From Desulfuribacillus stibiiarsenatis (GTDB lineage Bacteria > Bacillota > Bacilli > Desulfuribacillales > Desulfuribacillaceae): DNA of 64,000 bases. Positions 8,065-29,184 of this stretch are shown piece by piece; position 1 is the first letter of the stretch, and each line of letters begins with the position of its first letter. A program made the position numbers and the translations under genes. The DNA is taken from the NCBI RefSeq assembly GCF_001742305.1, contig NZ_MJAT01000022.1:62001-126000 (forward strand). Direction: 5' to 3'. Under the pieces are notes generated by a model. It was not told the origin of the DNA. It was given only the letters and a program-made list of their open reading frames with translations, and searched no databases.

Positions 8065-9747
8065 TTATTGCTTACCACTACAAGATTTGGCAGTAACGCA
8101 AGATAATTTATACACGAATTGCTTTCTTGCGGTATGGTACGTAGAACTTATAGAGAAGAAGTTATCCCACATGTGAGATAATTCTTCATTTCGATAATCC
8201 TCTAATGGTTTTATTTGTTCATCGAGTTTTCGCTGGATTTGTTTGTCTTTTAACAGCTGTTCATACTTTTTAGATGCTACTAAATGCTCTACAAATGCTT
8301 TTACCCCAGGTATTAAAGCGGAAGAATCATAAATTACATCAATTAAACCAATGGCTTTTGCTTTTCTCGTACTTAATGGCAGGCAGCTCTCGGTCAAAGT
8401 GGATGTTAATGTGGTCCCTACTCTGCTTGGTAATAGATACGTCCAATACTCAGAACCATACAAACCCATTTTTTTATAATGAGGATTTAAGATAATGCCA
8501 TCTCTAGCAAACACATAATCGCTAGCTAAAGCCATAATAACGCCCCCTGCTGCTGCGTTGCCCTGTAATGCAGAAATGACAATTTTTGAATCTGTCAGTA
8601 TAATATCTCGAACTAAATCATCAATCGCGTTAATATTGCGCCAAGATTCATGTCCAGGATGCGGGGAAGCTTCTATAACATTTAAGTGTATACCATTGGA
8701 CCAGAAGTCTTGTCCACCAAGCAGTACTAATACTTTTGTGTTTTTTGATAAAGCGGTTTGATACGCATCGCGCAATCGATAGCACTGTTCTGTGCTCATA
8801 GCACCATTGTAGAAATTGAACTGCAAATAGCCGACTTCATTTTTCTCATGATAAAAGATTTCTCTGTAAGTAGAGCCAGAATGAGAATCGAATGGAGACA
8901 GAGCTATACTAGGAACTTGATCGAGCTGATCTTGAAGAACCATTTCGGCAGGGAGTTTGCACGACAATTCTCCCTGGAGCGGCTTCTTTTTCAGATGGCT
9001 TATCCATACGGCACCATCGCCAGTAGCGCGACATATAGCTCCATCGCGCTTTGCTATAATATCGCCGGGAGCTCCCTTGAGTTTCGACTCCTCGTGCACT
9101 CCATATAGATAATAAGATTGGCCGTTAATTGTATCCAGCACTCCAGGCTGACTGTCGGCACAACGAATTTTTCGTGCGATCTGTGATGTAGGCTCGTGCC
9201 AATTGATTGCACGGTCTAGTTGTTTCATAGGAGTATGAAGGATTCCGATGGTATCAGAATGACTATAATCTAATGGTGTAGGTTTAAATGTTCCAGATTC
9301 AAACTTTTCGATAGTATCTAACAAACCCTTGATTGCAGCATCACAACCCTCCTTGCGATATAAGGCGCTTTTTGAAGCATTGCGTACTGGAAAGTTATGA
9401 GTTGCCCAGATATCTCCAGCATCCATCTCTGGAGAAGCTTCTAATAAAGTCACTCCCCACAGTTTTTTGCCGTTTAGGATAGCCCAGTCAAGAGAAGATG
9501 GACCGCGATCACCCTTCACGCCTGGGTGGACAATGATGCACTTATATCGCATCCATAATTGATCAGGGATATATTCTTTTAAAAAAGGTGCAATGATTAA
9601 TGAAGGATTAAAGCGTTCAGCAGCCTCCAACATTTTCTCACTGCTAGTAGAAAGTTGCACAAGTACATTATGGCCTCTGTCAGTTAACTCTACATAAGCC
9701 CTTTGGCTAAGACTATTATGGGCAGAAACGAGAAATAGGATTTTTAT
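8065..9747 (-). CDS. hypX: HypX/HoxX, hydrogenase CO-ligand maturation protein, apparent AUA start
   Basis: 560 aa. The N-terminal formyltransferase-like domain has HPGVKGDRGPSSLDWA near residue 75 and EMDAGDIWA. The C-terminal half (about 280-530) is a crotonase-like domain (LLGGQDFWSNG, ALQGNAAAGG). HypX uses a formyl donor to make the active-site CO of [NiFe] hydrogenase. The first canonical start in frame is GTG 9660, which would cut off the first strand. The family N-terminus (KILFLVSAHNSLSQR) is present upstream in frame, with no ATG, GTG or TTG before a stop. AAGGGGG at 9762-9756 lies 8 bp before ATA 9747 and 5 bp before ATC 9750. No hydrogenase genes are in the window. Confidence 0.85.
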   Translation of the reverse strand: MKILFLVSAHNSLSQRAYVELTDRGHNVLVQLSTSSEKMLEAAERFNPSLIIAPFLKEYIPDQLWMRYKCIIVHPGVKGDRGPSSLDWAILNGKKLWGVTLLEASPEMDAGDIWATHNFPVRNASKSALYRKEGCDAAIKGLLDTIEKFESGTFKPTPLDYSHSDTIGILHTPMKQLDRAINWHEPTSQIARKIRCADSQPGVLDTINGQSYYLYGVHEESKLKGAPGDIIAKRDGAICRATGDGAVWISHLKKKPLQGELSCKLPAEMVLQDQLDQVPSIALSPFDSHSGSTYREIFYHEKNEVGYLQFNFYNGAMSTEQCYRLRDAYQTALSKNTKVLVLLGGQDFWSNGIHLNVIEASPHPGHESWRNINAIDDLVRDIILTDSKIVISALQGNAAAGGVIMALASDYVFARDGIILNPHYKKMGLYGSEYWTYLLPSRVGTTLTSTLTESCLPLSTRKAKAIGLIDVIYDSSALIPGVKAFVEHLVASKKYEQLLKDKQIQRKLDEQIKPLEDYRNEELSHMWDNFFSISSTYHTARKQFVYKLSCVTAKSCSGKQ

Positions 9748-9899
9748 GATAAGAACCCCCTTGGTGGTATCAGAATTTGATACAAAGATAACGAAACTAT
9801 CTTAGGTAATAGATATTAAGTAATTATATAAGATAAATCGGAAATTACTATGAATTCCGTCACATGTATAGAAAAAAATAAAGTTTAGTCAAAAACAAA

Positions 9900-9934
9900 A
9901 AACTAGGATGCTTATATGCAAGCAATCCTAGTTT
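9900..9934 (-). terminator. Intrinsic terminator after metA
   Basis: A stem of about 14 bp with one bulge is followed on the minus strand by a T-rich run. It ends the metA transcript. Confidence 0.85.
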
Positions 9935-9946
9935 CGACAAGTTATA

Positions 9947-10864
9947 TTAGCCAATTTCGTTAAGATCATATGGCGTTTGTTGGTATACATAGTAGTTGAG
10001 CCAGTTCGAGAAAAGCAAGTTCGCGTGAGAGCGCCAACGCACGATTGGTTCTTGTGTTGTGTCATCGTTAGGGTAATAATTCTTAGGAATTGCAATTTCT
10101 TTACCAAGGCCACAATCGCGATCGTATTCGTATTTTAGAGTAAGAGGGTCATACTCAGAATGTCCTGTTACGAATACTTGTCGACCGTCCTTGGAAGCTA
10201 CTATATAAACGCCGGCTTCTTCTGACTCGGATAACACCTCAAGGGCGGGTACGTTTTCTATGTCCTCTTTGCGTGTGTAGGTATAGCGCGAATGAGGTAC
10301 GAAGAAAATGTCATCAAAACCGCGTAATAAAGCAACTTTCTTTTGATTTAATGTATGTTTAAAGACCCCAAACTGTTTTGATTCAAGTGGAAACTTGGGT
10401 ACGCCGTAATGGTGGAATAGCCCCGCTTGTGCACCCCAACATATATGAAAGGTAGAGGTTACATTCTTCACGGTCCAATCCATGATTTCTGCAAGCTCAT
10501 TCCAATACTTCACTTCTTCGAATTCCAAATGCTCAACAGGTGCACCAGTAATAATCATGCCGTCAAACTTTTCGTGTTTGATATCTTCGAAATGCTTATA
10601 GAACATGCTCAAGTGATCAATCGGTGTGTTCTTAGGCATATAGGATTTCGGATGAAGTAGTACAATATCAACCTGAATCGGAGAGTTTCCTAACAAACGC
10701 AAGAGATGAATCTCTGTTGCGACTTTCGTCGGCATCAAATTAAGAATAAGAATCCGTAACGGTCGGATATCTTGATGTAACGCTTGTTTTTCCCCCATAA
10801 CGAAAATATTCTCATTTTGTAATATTTCAGTTGCCGGCAAATTGTCCGGTATTTTTACTGGCAT
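9947..10864 (-). CDS. metAA: Homoserine O-acetyltransferase (MetA family)
   Basis: 305 aa cytosolic enzyme that acylates homoserine for methionine synthesis. The nucleophile C142 sits in [10 protein letters not shown], and the His/Glu catalytic region VTGHSEYD is present. Residue 111 is Glu (GAPVE111HLEF). In this family Glu111 goes with acetyl-CoA and Gly111 with succinyl-CoA, so acetyl transfer is predicted. Start: the family N-terminus [11 protein letters not shown] begins at 10864, behind GGGGAGGG; the frame opens 20 codons earlier without support. No S-box riboswitch is visible upstream. It follows the 10979-11683 gene after 114 bp with no terminator between. Confidence 0.95.
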
Positions 10865-10978
10865 TTGCAAATCCCTCCCCAATGAAAATGCAACTATAGG
10901 AGCATAGCTGGACTGATTATTCAAAAAATTCTTTAAAATCCATCATAGCACGAAAAAACAAAATTGAAAACAATATAT

Positions 10979-11882: not shown

Positions 11883-11942
11883 ACAAGTAGACGCTACAAG
11901 CAGTAATCAAGAGATTGAAATCACATGAAAGGAGAGTTGAGG

Positions 11943-12389
11943 ATGAAAGCAGAGGATATTATGACTTCAGATGTAATTACTGTCGGTCTGCAAGACACCA
12001 TTGAAGACGTCGCTAAGATATTAGTGGAAAAGAAAATCAGTGGTTTACCAGTGGTTGACGAAGGGGAATTGGTGGGGATTATCAGTGAGGGCGATATTGT
12101 TTTTCAGAATAAAAAAGTAACGCCACCGGCTTATGTTGATATTCTTGGTGCGTTAATTACCATTGGAAGCCAGGAGCAGTATTTACATGAAATTAAACGC
12201 GCTCTTGCTACTCAAGTGAAAGATCTAATGGTAACGAATGTAATGACAGTAGAAGCAGAAGCATCTTTAGAGGAAGTAGCAACTATGATGATTGATCATA
12301 ATATTAATCGCGTTCCGGTCGTAAGCAAGAAGAAATTGTTGGGAATTATTACTCGACAAGATATCTTGAAAGCAATGGGAAATAGATAA
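11943..12389 (+). CDS. CBS-pair domain protein
   Basis: 148 aa made of two CBS motifs only (residues about 1-60 and 92-148: MKAEDIMTSDVITV and VKDLMVTNVMTVEAEAS). CBS pairs usually bind adenine nucleotides and sense energy charge; here no catalytic domain is attached. Start: ATG 11943 is 8 bp after AAAGGAG, while ATG 11925 has no such site. A monocistronic unit with its own promoter is likely. The partner is unknown. Confidence 0.9.
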   Translation: MKAEDIMTSDVITVGLQDTIEDVAKILVEKKISGLPVVDEGELVGIISEGDIVFQNKKVTPPAYVDILGALITIGSQEQYLHEIKRALATQVKDLMVTNVMTVEAEASLEEVATMMIDHNINRVPVVSKKKLLGIITRQDILKAMGNR

Positions 12390-12546
12390 ACACCAGGTTT
12401 CAGTAACGAAAAGGTTGTTTCTTACTAGTTAGTTGTACCAAAAATTACACTATTTTAATGTAGACTCCAAAAATAATTTTAGGAAATGATAATAATTAAA
12501 GACGATTAATTAGAATCTACTAGTTGTTGAGGGGGAAATAGATAAA

Positions 12547-13698
12547 ATGGCTGTATTTACTCGAGAAAATATAAAACAATTGATGGGTCATGGTGATAAA
12601 CTTTGTATTTCTATTTATTTGCCAACAGGCACTACGGGGGCTGAAGGTAAGCAAGGGCAAATCCGTCTGAAAAATTTATTAAGACAAGCACAAGACCAAA
12701 TGATAGAAAATGGGTATAAGAAACAAGATATTGAAGGATTAACGGAACCTATTCAAACACTTATTTCAGACACACTATTTTGGAGCTACCAACGTGGGGG
12801 CTTAGCAATCTTTTTAGCGGAAAATGTGTTTGAATATTATCAAGTTCCGTATGAGTTTGAAGAGTTGGCAATCATTGCTCAGAACTTCCATCTTAAACCG
12901 TTGATGCCATTGTTCGTAGAAGATGGAACGTTTTATGTCTTGGCATTAAATCAAAAGCACGTGAAACTACTTGCCTGCTCAAGATTTCTGCATTATGAAA
13001 TACCGTTAGAGGATGTACCGACAAGCTTAGAAGAATATTTAAAATACGATGATCCGGAAAGGCAATTACAATTCTCTTCCTTTAACCCTGCGGGGGGCGT
13101 GGGGAGAAGTGTTGCTTCTTATCATGGCCATAGCTTGAGTGATGAAGAGAAGACAAATTTGCTGCGCTTTTTCCAAGAGATTGAAAAAGGTGTGCGAAAA
13201 ACGCTGCAAGACAGTCGGTCCCCTTTAATACTGGCAGGAGTTGAATATTATCTGCCTATGTACAGAGAAGCGAACCAATATTCTACTGTGATTGAACCGG
13301 GCATAGTTGGAAGTGTAGAAGCTTTTTCGAACGATGAACTTCATGAAAAAGCATGGGAAATTGTGGAATCTTATTTTCAACAAGCGCGTGAAGAAGCATT
13401 ATCGAAATATCAAGAAATTGTTGGTACTGGAAGAACATCAACGGATATAAAAGAGATTGTTTTGGGAGCCTACACAGGAAGAATAGCAACCATGTTCGTG
13501 GCGAGCGGAAAGCAGCAATGGGGAAGGTTTGATAAGGATACAAGTGAAGTGATTCTCGAAGATCAATCAACCATCGAAAATCAAGATTTACTCAATGATG
13601 CAGCAATCCAAACCTTTTTGAACAATGGAACGGTATACGTAGTTTCAGAAAAGTTAGTGCCTGACAATAAAGAAGTAGCCGCGATGTTCCGATTCTGA
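12547..13698 (+). CDS. baeRF family 3 protein (bacterial archaeo-eukaryotic release factor-like)
   Basis: 383 aa soluble protein. The N-terminal LCISIYLPTG, the RGGLAIFLA and FYVLALNQKHVKLLAC blocks, the middle PLILAGVEYYLPMYRE, and the C-terminal part ending with GTVYVVSEKLVPDN.VAAMFRF fit the baeRF family 3 proteins. These are distant relatives of aRF1/Pelota. A role in ribosome rescue or hibernation is proposed for the group, not proven. The start has GAGGGGG upstream. It is followed by its own terminator, and the gene stands alone. Confidence 0.8.
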   Translation: MAVFTRENIKQLMGHGDKLCISIYLPTGTTGAEGKQGQIRLKNLLRQAQDQMIENGYKKQDIEGLTEPIQTLISDTLFWSYQRGGLAIFLAENVFEYYQVPYEFEELAIIAQNFHLKPLMPLFVEDGTFYVLALNQKHVKLLACSRFLHYEIPLEDVPTSLEEYLKYDDPERQLQFSSFNPAGGVGRSVASYHGHSLSDEEKTNLLRFFQEIEKGVRKTLQDSRSPLILAGVEYYLPMYREANQYSTVIEPGIVGSVEAFSNDELHEKAWEIVESYFQQAREEALSKYQEIVGTGRTSTDIKEIVLGAYTGRIATMFVASGKQQWGRFDKDTSEVILEDQSTIENQDLLNDAAIQTFLNNGTVYVVSEKLVPDNKEVAAMFRF

Positions 13699-13725
13699 TG
13701 CCCGGCGTAATACTTTAGAGTCAAC

Positions 13726-13756
13726 AAAAGCGATGCAGAGAACTTGCATCGCTTTT
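13726..13756 (+). terminator. Intrinsic terminator
   Basis: Perfect 12-bp stem AAAAGCGATGCA/TGCATCGCTTTT with a 7-nt loop. The stem itself supplies the T tract. Confidence 0.85.
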
Positions 13757-13864
13757 GCAAATAATATATATACGTGTATATAAATACATCAAGATTCACA
13801 TGAAGTGTTTTTTATAATGCCTTTTTGAATTCAAGCCCAGGTACAGACTAGTGAATAATAACCA

Positions 13865-13929
13865 TTGACTAACGATGCGCTAAAATTTATAATTTACCAC
13901 TTGTAAAATAACCGCATTTGGTATATACT
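13865..13929 (+). promoter_or_regulatory. Tandem sigma-A promoters of the candidate RNA
   Basis: Promoter 1: TTGACT 13865-13870, 17 bp, TATAAT 13888-13893. Promoter 2: TTGTAA 13901-13906, 17 bp, TATACT 13924-13929, which predicts a start near 13936, about 12 nt before the RNA's closing helix. No open reading frame with a ribosome site follows before the terminator at 14340. Confidence 0.75.
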
Positions 13930-13935
13930 AAAAGC

Positions 13936-14342
13936 AAGAAAACAGCAATAACTTCTTAAGAGACTCAACCATAAAAAGTTAAGTTCCGGTATGAAAAGAT
14001 CATAAATAGTGTTTGATCGATTATGCTGGAAGCATTTAATGACCATCTCAATAGATGGTTCCCTATAAGGGATGAAGGTTGGTTTAGTCTTAGAATGGAT
14101 TTGCGGAACTGACTGCCCATCAGGTAATTCTGAAAATGGTATGTGTAAAGTGAAGTAAAGTAACCATCAAGTAACTAAAGGTAACGATGATTCTAAATGA
14201 AACATGTAATGTTTGCTCGTGGATAGAATCGTAAGGTTTAGAGGCGAGTTATAAGCCCTGATGAGTGATGGTTGAGTCTCTTAAGAAGTTATACCATAGT
14301 TCAGCAAAAGAGTATGCTTAGAATCGAGCATACTCTTTTGTT
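13936..14342 (+). ncRNA. Candidate structured noncoding RNA, about 400 nt, unrecognised family
   Basis: Two perfect 25-nt arms (13948-13972 and 14268-14292) form a closing helix. Inside are a 7-bp long-range pair (13982-13988 with 14104-14110), a hairpin at 14042-14059 (7 bp, 4-nt loop), a hairpin at 14060-14072, and a nested pair of stems (14189-14195 with 14224-14230, enclosing 14200-14205 with 14209-14214). Tandem promoters precede it and a 14-bp terminator follows. It lacks the signature sequences of RNase P RNA, tmRNA, SRP RNA, 6S RNA, T-box and introns that I know. An internal 29-codon frame (14023-14112) has no ribosome site. A MITE is the main alternative, since TA flanks both arms. 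Confidence 0.65.
14306..14342 (+). terminator. Intrinsic terminator of the candidate RNA
   Basis: A 14-bp stem (arms CAAAAGAGTATGCT and its complement) with a short loop closes with TTTTG. It separates the RNA from the helicase start by about 100 bp. Confidence 0.85.
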
Positions 14343-14438
14343 TGCGATTAGCATTTTCAACTTCTAGGTATGAATTGTCTTTTTCTACCCAAAACTGTAT
14401 ACTATGGGATAGCTTATGATAAAGAAAGTGGGTGTCAA

Positions 14439-15785
14439 ATGCCAAGAAAATTTTCGGATTTAGGTATTCGACGGGTTCTTAATGAAGAATTACATAAACA
14501 AGGGATTACGGAAGCTACACAGATTCAGGCGGAAACAATTCCGCTGTTGTTAAAAGGGAAAGATGTCATTGGACAGGCACAGACAGGCACTGGGAAGACA
14601 CTAGCATTCTTACTGCCAATCCTTGAACGCATCAATACGAAAAAAGATGCAATACAAGCCTTAATTATTACTCCTACGCGAGAGATAGCAATTCAAATAA
14701 CGGCTGAGTTAAACAAGTATATTGATCACGTGAATGCCAAGGTTTTGGCTTGTTATGGTGGACAGGATGTGGAAAGACAAATTCAACGTCTGCGTTCTCG
14801 TCATATTGTAGTAGGGACGCCAGGTCGATTATTAGAGCATGTGGGACGTGGCACGATTAAATTATCGGATGTATCGATGGTTGTACTTGATGAAGCAGAC
14901 CAAATGCTACACATGGGTTTCTTGCCGGATGTAGAAGAAGTCATTACTAAGACATCGTCACGCAGACAGACAATGTTGTTTTCGGCAACGATTCCTAAAA
15001 ATGTACGAGTTCTAGCGAAAAAGTATATGAAGAAACCAACGTTTGTTCAAGTCCAAGAAGGTAAGAAAATCACACTAGATGACATTCAGCAAGTCATGAT
15101 TGATACGACAGAGAACAAGAAGACGGATCTGCTTTGCGAGCTTATCGATAAGTATCGTCCGTATCTTGCGATTGTATTTTGTGGGAAAAAGGAAAAAGCA
15201 ATAGAAGTAAATAAAGAGTTAGCAGAACGCGGCTATGAATGTGACGAATTACATGGAGAATTGAGCCAATCGAAACGTCAACAAGTCATGAAGCGTTTTC
15301 GTGACGCGAAGCTGCAAATCCTTATTGCAACCGACATTGCGGCACGCGGGCTAGATGTGGAAGGTGTCACACATGTATTTAGTTACGATATACCGCGGAG
15401 CACGGATTGGTATATTCATCGAATTGGGAGAACAGGTCGAGCTGGGGAAAAAGGAATGGCTATTACTTTTGTAACCCCTGATGATGTTGAAAAGCTCCAG
15501 AAGATTGAAAAAGGCATTGCGAGCAAGTTAGAGCGCCGAGATAAAGATGGCGAAACAATCATTAAACCAACGGTAAAACGGACGTATCAGCGTGGTGAAG
15601 GTAAAGCTTCTCCAGATAAAAAGAACGCTAAAGGCGGTAAAGCCCGCGGTTCAAAAACTGGCTCTGTAAAGGGCAATAGAAGTACCACGAAAGCATCAGG
15701 TAGAACGGCTGCGAAAAGCAGTTCAAGGACTGCAAAAACGTCAAGAATATCTAGAACATCAACAACACCAAGAAAACAATCATAA
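14439..15785 (+). CDS. DEAD-box ATP-dependent RNA helicase (CshA/DeaD-like)
   Basis: 448 aa. The motifs are in order: Q motif (TEATQIQAETIP), I (AQTGTGKT), Ia (PTREIA), Ib (TPGRL), II (DEAD), III (SAT), V (ARGLDVEGVTH), VI (HRIGRTGRAG). After about residue 370 a basic, Ser/Thr/Lys/Arg-rich low-complexity tail of about 75 residues probably binds RNA non-specifically. The start MPRKFSDLG at 14439 has AAGTGGGTG upstream; the frame opens 23 codons earlier without support. It unwinds RNA during decay, ribosome assembly or cold adaptation. The structured RNA just upstream makes autoregulation worth testing. Confidence 0.93.
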   Translation: MPRKFSDLGIRRVLNEELHKQGITEATQIQAETIPLLLKGKDVIGQAQTGTGKTLAFLLPILERINTKKDAIQALIITPTREIAIQITAELNKYIDHVNAKVLACYGGQDVERQIQRLRSRHIVVGTPGRLLEHVGRGTIKLSDVSMVVLDEADQMLHMGFLPDVEEVITKTSSRRQTMLFSATIPKNVRVLAKKYMKKPTFVQVQEGKKITLDDIQQVMIDTTENKKTDLLCELIDKYRPYLAIVFCGKKEKAIEVNKELAERGYECDELHGELSQSKRQQVMKRFRDAKLQILIATDIAARGLDVEGVTHVFSYDIPRSTDWYIHRIGRTGRAGEKGMAITFVTPDDVEKLQKIEKGIASKLERRDKDGETIIKPTVKRTYQRGEGKASPDKKNAKGGKARGSKTGSVKGNRSTTKASGRTAAKSSSRTAKTSRISRTSTTPRKQS

Positions 15786-15871
15786 AGAAAACTTAGTGGC
15801 AATTATTTCGAAGCTTAGCGGCTCTTATCTCCGACGTACAAAAGTGGGAGTATCAATAACGCCGCTGAGAT
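15783..15871 (+). repeat. Modular structured repeat, copy A
   Basis: It starts within the helicase stop codon with TAAAGAAAACTTAG and ends with GCCGCTGAGAT. It has the shared TTATTTCGAAGCTTAGCGGC and AAGTGGGAGTAT blocks but lacks the first hairpin of copies B and C. It lies 32 bp before the ABC-F start codon. Confidence 0.8.
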
Positions 15872-15902
15872 TAAACATGGGTATATGGAGGCAGAGTAAT
15901 CA

Positions 15903-17519
15903 ATGATAAGTACAGTAGGAATCAGTCTTCAATATGGGGGACGCAAATTATTTGAAGATGTAACAATTCAATTTACGGATGGAAATTGCTATGGTTTAAT
16001 CGGTGCTAACGGCGCTGGGAAATCTACGTTCTTAAAGATATTATCTGGGGAAATTGACGCGAATAAAGGGGAAGTAATCTTACCTGCGAATTCACGCTTA
16101 GCTGTCTTGAAACAGAACCACTTCGAGTATGAAGAGGAAGAAGTATTGAAGACGGTCATCATGGGTCACCATCGTTTATTTGCAATTATGGAAGAGAAGA
16201 ATGAATTGTACGCGAAGGAAAACTTCACAGATGAAGACGGCATTCGTGCTGCTGAGCTTGAAGGAGAATTCGCTGAGCTTAACGGTTGGGAAGCAGAATC
16301 AGAAGCGGCAATTTTACTATCCGGTTTAGGGATTACAGAAGACTACCACGATAAGAAAATGAAAGAGCTAAGCGGATCTGAAAAAGTAAAGGTTCTACTT
16401 GCACAGGCGCTTTTTGGTCGTCCTGATGTACTGCTGTTAGACGAGCCGACGAACCATTTAGACTTAAAAGCGATTGAGTGGTTAGAGAACTTCTTAATGA
16501 ACTTTGAAAGCACTGTCATTGTAGTATCCCATGACAGACACTTCTTGAATAAAGTGTGTACCCATATCGCTGACGTTGATTTTGGGAAAATTCAATTATA
16601 CGTAGGAAACTATGACTTCTGGTACGAATCAAGCCAGTTAGCATTAAAAATGGCAAGAGAACAGAACAAGAAGCAAGAAGAAAAGATTAAAGAGTTGCAA
16701 GCATTTATTGCGCGTTTTAGTTCAAACGCATCGAAGGCAAAGCAAGCAACTTCTCGCAAAAAGTTATTAGACAAAATTACCCTAGAAGACATTAAACCTT
16801 CTACTCGCAAATATCCGTACATTGATTTTAAATCAGAACGTGAAGCTGGAAATGATTTAGTGCGTGTCGAAGGAATTAGTAAAACAATCGACGGAGAAAA
16901 GGTCTTAGACAATATCTCGTTTATCGTGAATAAGGGAGATAAAATTGTTCTTACAGGTCCTAATGAATTAGCGAAAACAACTCTGTTCAAAATCCTTATG
17001 GGTGAAATCGAACCAGATAGTGGTACATTTACTTGGGGGATTACGACCACAAGAGCATATTTTCCAAAGGATAACTCGGAATATTTCGAGGGCGTGGATT
17101 TGAACTTAGTGGATTGGCTACGACAGTACTCAAAGGATCAGTCAGAGAATTACATCCGTGGTTTCTTAGGCAGAATGCTATTCTCTGGGGAAGAAGCACT
17201 TAAGAAAGCGAGTGTCCTTTCTGGAGGAGAAAAAGTACGTTGCATGCTCTCTCGAATGATGAATAGCGGAGCTAACGTATTGCTATTGGATGAGCCGACG
17301 AACCATTTAGATCTAGAATCAATTACAGCCTTGAATACGGGCTTAACAAAGTTCAATGGGACACTTTTCTTCACATCCCATGACCGTCAGTTTATTGAAA
17401 CGATTGCAAATCGCATAATAGAAATCACGCCAAAAGGAATTATCGACAGACAATGCTCGTATGAAGAGTTCCTAGGGAATGATGATTTACAAAAGCAGTT
17501 ACAATCGATGTACCAGTAA
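15903..17519 (+). CDS. ABC-F family ATPase (YkpA/YbiT-like)
   Basis: 538 aa soluble protein with two ABC domains and no membrane part. Domain 1: Walker A GANGAGKST near residue 38, signature LSGSEK (usual LSGGE), Walker B LLLDEPTNHLD. A charged linker (about 240-300) follows. Domain 2: Walker A position reads GPNELAKTT, lacking the usual second and third Gly, with signature LSGGEK and a second DEPTNHLD. ABC-F proteins act on ribosomes, as translation factors or antibiotic protection. This subgroup is mostly housekeeping, so resistance should not be assumed. An altered second P-loop seems to occur in relatives (recalled, not checked). Start after GGAGG. Confidence 0.9.
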   Translation: MISTVGISLQYGGRKLFEDVTIQFTDGNCYGLIGANGAGKSTFLKILSGEIDANKGEVILPANSRLAVLKQNHFEYEEEEVLKTVIMGHHRLFAIMEEKNELYAKENFTDEDGIRAAELEGEFAELNGWEAESEAAILLSGLGITEDYHDKKMKELSGSEKVKVLLAQALFGRPDVLLLDEPTNHLDLKAIEWLENFLMNFESTVIVVSHDRHFLNKVCTHIADVDFGKIQLYVGNYDFWYESSQLALKMAREQNKKQEEKIKELQAFIARFSSNASKAKQATSRKKLLDKITLEDIKPSTRKYPYIDFKSEREAGNDLVRVEGISKTIDGEKVLDNISFIVNKGDKIVLTGPNELAKTTLFKILMGEIEPDSGTFTWGITTTRAYFPKDNSEYFEGVDLNLVDWLRQYSKDQSENYIRGFLGRMLFSGEEALKKASVLSGGEKVRCMLSRMMNSGANVLLLDEPTNHLDLESITALNTGLTKFNGTLFFTSHDRQFIETIANRIIEITPKGIIDRQCSYEEFLGNDDLQKQLQSMYQ

Positions 17520-28895: not shown

Positions 28896-29048
28896 ATTAT
28901 ACAAAAAAGTTGGAAAAAGGAAAAGAGATTCCATTGATTTTTTCTAGAAAGTAAGGTTATAATGTTTTTTATTTACTTCTACTACATTTGTTTAACTGTA
29001 GTAAACGTGCAAGAGTCGTATGAATAACAAAATAAATAAAAAATATTA

Positions 29049-29115
29049 ACTCATATAATAGTGGGGATATGGCCTGCGAGTTTCTACCAGCTACCGCAAA
29101 TAGTTGACTATGAGT
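29049..29115 (+). promoter_or_regulatory. Purine riboswitch aptamer, guanine type
   Basis: P1 arms ACTCATA (29049-29055) and TATGAGT (29109-29115) close a three-way junction with the class signatures TATAAT, GATATGG, GTTTCTACC, CCGCAAA and GACTATG. The discriminating base after GA in the last block (position 74 of the xpt aptamer) is C, so guanine or hypoxanthine is predicted rather than adenine. It controls xpt and the permease. Confidence 0.95.
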
Positions 29116-29184
29116 GAAATGATTGATTTTTAAGTGTATGATTATTTGTCATCGAGACTTAGAATGATGTCTTTTTCACTTTTG

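Follow-up and report, generated by a model that had tools for sequence, protein, structure and literature searches.

What kind of element is closed by the long perfect helix that lies upstream of a DEAD-box helicase gene of Desulfuribacillus stibiiarsenatis, in the 64,000-nucleotide stretch of DNA analyzed here (hereafter, the window)? A previous sequence-only reading had proposed a new structured RNA, either independent or representing an attenuating leader for the helicase, and had also considered the possibility that the arms of the helix were MITE terminal repeats. The 5′ arm of this helix, referred to as P1 (13948..13972, + strand; ATAACTTCTTAAGAGACTCAACCAT), and the 3′ arm (14268..14292, + strand; ATGGTTGAGTCTCTTAAGAAGTTAT) are complementary at 25 out of 25 positions and are spaced by 295 nt. 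They represent the longest perfect inverted repeat spanning up to 1 kb in the 64-kb window, the runner-up being of 16 bp, and the longest inverted repeat in shuffled window sequences (n = 20) was of 15 bp; the perfect 25-bp helix of the previous reading is thus real and its coordinates exact. The segment including arms and terminator folds at −136.4 kcal/mol (z = −9.6 versus shuffles), a stability mostly due to the clamp and the terminator.

The gene run around the RNA (window 11925-17519) comprises a CBS-domain gene, a baeRF gene, the DEAD-box helicase gene, and an ABC-F ATPase gene, several of which are translation-related. The baeRF gene, found in 2 of the 61 genomes searched, both of the family, possesses a 13-bp terminator hairpin (window 13725-13757), which isolates it from the RNA. 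DNA similarity searches in 151 relatives, phages, and plasmids did not retrieve anything but the window locus itself, and it was the gene order that allowed us to locate a syntenic orthologue (L044:8549-8922) in G001, the one other family genome compared. In G001, the baeRF-domain gene (59% identity at the protein level) and the helicase gene (70%) lie 5.5 kb apart, in the order baeRF, GGDEF-EAL, RNA locus, opposite-strand histidine kinase, and helicase; the window has neither the GGDEF-EAL gene (L044:5841-8399) nor the MASE3 histidine kinase gene (9014-10927) between baeRF and helicase. The orthologous clamp is a perfect 24-bp inverted repeat around 326 nt, directly followed by a 22-bp terminator hairpin; its arms are identical to those of the window at 20 out of 24 positions, and each of the four that differ is matched by a compensating change in the partner arm. 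Searching the genome contigs for related loci via the baeRF neighbor did not reveal any.

Furthermore, the innermost nine pairs of P1 (CTCAACCAT..ATGGTTGAG, at the right distance) were used as a search pattern over 400 genomes of the class. The pattern was retrieved from the window, from L044, from a second locus of the window's own genome G000 (L136:1485-1818, contig C1), and from G105, where the helix is of 10 bp and attributable to chance. In L136, the helix reaches 26 bp, closes a 282-nt loop, and is followed after 3-4 nt by a terminator hairpin of 20 bp; this copy is located between a CAAX-protease gene and rmuC, the RNA being upstream of the latter. The exact arm pattern occurs at two loci in total in the whole G000 genome, and a repeat scan of 2.33 of its 3.12 Mb did not reveal any further similarity to the arms. 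From viral contigs, the arm pattern yielded 24 matches, whose helices end at 9-14 bp and which were discarded as chance. An interior-block pattern (CGGAACTGACT..CATCAG) was also probed in class genomes, genome contigs, and viral contigs; the matches inspected lack a long flanking helix and were attributed to chance. The covariance search proposed in the previous reading, carried out with a model of the 5′ domain built on two sequences (so that distant relatives could be missed), recovered, out of 400 genomes of the class and 399 of the phylum, the two family genomes and no others; a weak class match was rejected as an intergenic chance match. Two other long inverted repeats were observed in G000. 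One of them (CTCCATCTGAACTAAGTTTTCTTTAT, 26 bp, perfect; L197:4350-5038, contig C36) surrounds an ORF that by eye resembles SGNH/GDSL hydrolases, and part of its arms recurs at L216:18310-18465, which suggests that it is probably a repeated palindromic intergenic element. The other (L179:1174-1322, contig C17), of 27 bp with four G-U pairs and a 95-nt loop, shows no sequence relationship with the clamp family.

The alignment of 24 P1 pairs from the three copies (three rows from two genomes, two rows belonging to one of them) revealed that 72 out of 72 cells are paired, with five pairs bearing double compensatory changes and one C-G pair changed into U-G. Such pairing and changes were matched by 2 out of 500 shuffles, and in a control in which the partner was slid by one to three columns pairing fell to 28-46%. 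The variation sits in the outer part of P1, since the innermost twelve pairs (AGRCUCAACCAU/AUGGUUGAGYCU) vary at one pair and the innermost nine are invariant, their invariance in L136 being partly the result of hit selection, as these nine pairs were fixed by the search pattern. The outer fifteen pairs, absent from the pattern, represent an independent test. All three copies are closed by a terminal duplex of 24-26 bp with doubly compensated pairs, corresponding to about two turns of A-form RNA. With three rows, the evidence for covariation can be considered good, short of overwhelming; moreover, template switching at the DNA level can homogenize the arms of an inverted repeat, mimicking covariation. 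As for the drift of homologues without covariation, which the previous reading had envisaged as an argument against an RNA, the arms do covary in two relatives, and it is the interior that drifts.

The three copies also share the same transcription-unit anatomy, that is, a −10 box, a distance of 18-23 nt, the 24-26 bp helix with a 282-326 nt loop, and a terminator within 0-12 nt. Two near-consensus promoters had been described upstream of the helix, and both sites, resembling sigma-A promoters, are present in the window: a distal promoter-like site (TTGACT-17-TATAAT; 13865..13893, + strand), which lacks a counterpart in L044 and may or may not be used, and a proximal promoter (TTGTAA-17-TATACT; 13901..13929, + strand; TGGTATATACTAA), which resembles TGGTATATTCTAA of L136. 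As a class, promoter-like sites show no excess over chance in this AT-rich window; the proximal promoter gains weight because a −10 box precedes P1 at a similar distance in all three copies (18 nt in the window, 23 nt in L044, with TTGTTA-17-TATAAT, and 18 nt in L136, with TATATT). The 14-bp terminator previously reported after the helix is present as a terminator-like hairpin (14305-14318/14327-14340, + strand), and a strict consensus scan omitted it because its U run is inside the stem; the hairpins following P1 differ in sequence, as in length, among the copies. No ORF of at least 60 aa overlaps the window RNA, and its smaller ORFs (<60 aa) do not have a counterpart in L044, in agreement with the absence of a coding frame noticed earlier. 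The + strand is favored as the RNA because the loop of the − strand folds more weakly (−73.2 kcal/mol for + versus −56.5 for − in the window) and because the + strand as such folds far better than the − strand (for example, −129 versus −71 kcal/mol in L136). These data suggest that P1 is very probably an RNA helix under selection, within a stand-alone ncRNA.

The interior of this putative RNA behaves differently. The window loop (295 nt; 13973..14267, + strand) contains 12% C, has a GC skew of +0.33, and is poorly conserved. All three loops are C-poor, with a positive GC skew on the transcribed strand (0.33-0.40); an absolute skew of at least 0.27 occurs in about a tenth of the 295-nt pieces of the window. 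The loops of the window and of its orthologue share, in a colinear arrangement, the blocks AGUUCCG, UGAUCG, GGAAGC, UAGAUGG, CGGAACUGACU, and CAUCAG; over 1000 shuffles, this homology was equaled 54 times for the local score, 67 times for the longest exact match, and 50 times for the colinear chain, and is therefore borderline (p about 0.05). In the window, AGUUCCG (13982..13988, + strand) can pair either locally with CUGGAA (14026-14031) or at long range with CGGAACU (14104-14110), and the partner preferred in silico differs between the two species. The block CGGAACUGACU-NN(N)-CAUCAG (14104..14123, + strand) is common to the orthologue and absent from L136. A further element, CCUGAUG (14257..14263, + strand), can pair with CAUCAGG (14118-14124), the corresponding pair being CUGGUG/CAUCAG in the orthologue, with a pairing probability of 0.06 in the window and 0.99 in the orthologue. 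Of the hairpin ACCAUCU-CAAU-AGAUGGU (14042..14059, + strand), 5 bp persist in the orthologue, two of them with changes on both sides. When the 5′ part was aligned without regard to structure, two common helices emerged, with one (UUCCGG/CUGGAA to UUCCGA/UCGGAA, from window to orthologue) and two (CAUCU/AGAUG to UGUCU/AGACA) double changes; a common helix as good as the 14042-14059 hairpin was obtained in 25 out of 500 column shuffles, so that the support is modest. None of these blocks was found in the L136 loop. When loops alone were folded, the z-score was −3.0 to −3.4 in the window, −1.4 in the orthologue, and −0.75 in L136, the last two not being significantly more stable than shuffles. 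Hence, the four or more further stems previously fitted inside the helix are possible in the window copy, and their conservation is doubtful. Since the interior blocks are borderline in the orthologues and missing from L136, what is conserved is the end-clamp with its transcription unit, and the interior represents either a fast-evolving or a different cargo. The new structured RNA of the previous reading would accordingly hold as an independent RNA closed by a helix, and much less as one with a richly structured and conserved interior. A stretch of the window loop (14194-14214) and a different DEAD-box helicase gene of G000 (C21:20072-20092) agree at 20 out of 21 nt (E 0.035), which is probably due to chance; as the match is in sense orientation, that gene is not an antisense target.

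The comparison with Rfam 15, also suggested in the previous reading, did not bring any family to the gathering score in the window locus, L044, or L136, and the sub-threshold matches of the three copies (E 0.08-10) lie far below gathering and look like chance hairpins. Elsewhere in the window, a purine riboswitch (RF00167, 84.6 bits) is located at 29031-29130, + strand. A retron was considered and rejected, no reverse transcriptase being encoded by the neighboring genes examined.

In principle, the same locus might be explained by a DNA element, either MITE-like, with the arms as terminal inverted repeats, or a long-lived inverted repeat whose arms are prevented from diverging by template switching or gene conversion. 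A unit of ~345 bp with perfect 25-bp terminal repeats recalls MITEs, and the two G000 copies, alike in their arms and not in their interiors, exhibit the terminal-repeat-only pattern. However, the locus occupies an orthologous position in two genera, none of the three copies is flanked by target duplications (AACAGCA..ACCATAG, ATAGCC..AAAGAAG, and GAAGAAC..CGGGAAA), and the promoter and the terminator lie outside the arms in each of them; moreover, the arms remain complementary within each copy even though the copies differ from one another, tolerating a G-U pair in one case. MITE repeats had been expected at many loci with target duplications, and the genome harbors one extra copy; the MITE reading of the window locus is disfavored, and a DNA origin of either type appears improbable. 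An attenuating or riboswitch-like leader of the helicase gene is even harder to reconcile with these data, and we consider it very unlikely. The same-strand helicase gene (14439-15785) does start about 100 bp downstream of the RNA, as previously noticed, with the terminator before the gene; nonetheless, in G001 the opposite-strand histidine kinase gene intervenes, the second copy lies upstream of rmuC, and the helicase keeps a conserved promoter of its own after the RNA terminator (window 14375-14407 versus L044:11047-11079, 79% identity), that is, a TTGTCT-17-TATACT site outside the RNA (14375..14403, + strand) detected by consensus scan and by its conservation in L044. Of the two options left by the sequence-only reading, the independent RNA is the one that survives, having no Rfam family and two relatives with compensatory changes in the helix.

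As for known independent RNAs, their size and closed-ends architecture are similar to those observed here; nevertheless, none of the families concerned (6S, SRP, RNase P, tmRNA, OLE, raiA/ModT, ROOL, and GOLLD) matches any of the three copies in Rfam up to E 10, the 6S, SRP, and RNase P genes were found elsewhere in both genomes, and ARAGORN did not detect any tmRNA in the window. Thus, a divergent housekeeping RNA or a member of a known ornate family is extremely unlikely. The locus resembles 6S RNA in being stand-alone with paired ends, 6S RNA being much shorter. It resembles OLE, raiA (ModT), ROOL, and GOLLD, several of which occur in Bacillota, in being a large stand-alone ncRNA, and differs from them in its interior, which is not strongly conserved; with regard to this comparison, no tRNA was found in the window and no phage-like gene among the neighbors examined. 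A different scenario is that of a structured RNP or ornate RNA whose function would reside in an interior core (AGUUCCG/CGGAACU, CAUCAG/CUGRUG, and the 14042-14059 hairpin), with P1 doing no more than closing it. The colinear blocks of the orthologues, their two doubly changed interior helices, the window loop z-score of −3.4, and the two competing conserved partners of AGUUCCG, which could form a switch, are in line with such a core. On the other hand, block sharing is at p about 0.05, the favored pairing is not the same in the two species, and L136 has neither the blocks nor a specially stable loop; therefore, we regard this scenario as rather unlikely.

The best explanation overall, toward which we lean, is that of an independent ncRNA family whose terminal duplex represents a processing and stabilizing clamp for RNase III. 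Substrates of RNase III comprise roughly two turns of duplex, and the 24-26 bp of P1 match them in length. A comparable architecture is known in Campylobacter jejuni, where RNase III matures the sRNA precursor pre-CJnc190 by cleaving the duplex formed by its two ends (PMC8687705). In both cases the RNA is enclosed by a long duplex between its 5′ and 3′ flanks, and there is more than one promoter or promoter-like site; unlike pre-CJnc190, a precursor of 186 nt, the clamp RNA has a perfect 24-26 bp duplex closing ~300 nt and is present at two loci, the interiors of which are unrelated, so that the likeness is one of architecture, from which a role of RNase III may be supposed. In Bacillus subtilis, RNase III also matures the scRNA (PMC3531473). 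The long terminal duplex is consistent with a maturation of this kind, as in Bacillus scRNA (SRP RNA) and in rRNA processing stems, whereas the clamp RNA, unlike scRNA, lacks an Rfam match, and SRP RNA is encoded elsewhere in both genomes. Judged by these analogies, the specific role of RNase III maturation clamp is evenly poised.

According to this model of an RNase III clamp, transcription would proceed from about 13936 to about 14342 on the + strand, and the ends of the RNA would snap into the 24-26 bp duplex, which would be the conserved functional element. RNase III (or Mini-III) would then cut the outer half of P1, whose freedom in sequence combined with complementarity fits a cleavage region, releasing an RNA of ~300 nt held closed by the inner 12 bp; these near-invariant pairs fit a retained clamp, perhaps recognized by a protein. 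The C-poor and fast-changing interior would represent the cargo, possibly a target-pairing or scaffold part. A more far-reaching version, which we put forward tentatively and consider somewhat unlikely, is that of a new ncRNA class, in which one conserved 24-26 bp duplex module, an invariant end-clamp, is reused with its promoter and terminator at different loci to package unrelated interiors of ~300 nt and possibly has a recognition protein of its own, either RNase III-like or clamp-binding.

Homology searches based on the interior miss this RNA, including the orthologue and the second copy, both of which are revealed by the helix and the gene order. If expressed, it would represent an RNA family in which the closing duplex is the part under selection and the interior keeps turning over, contrary to what is seen in most structured RNAs. 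This, in turn, would make it a clean case for understanding what a terminal duplex does, be it maturation, stability, or protein recognition.
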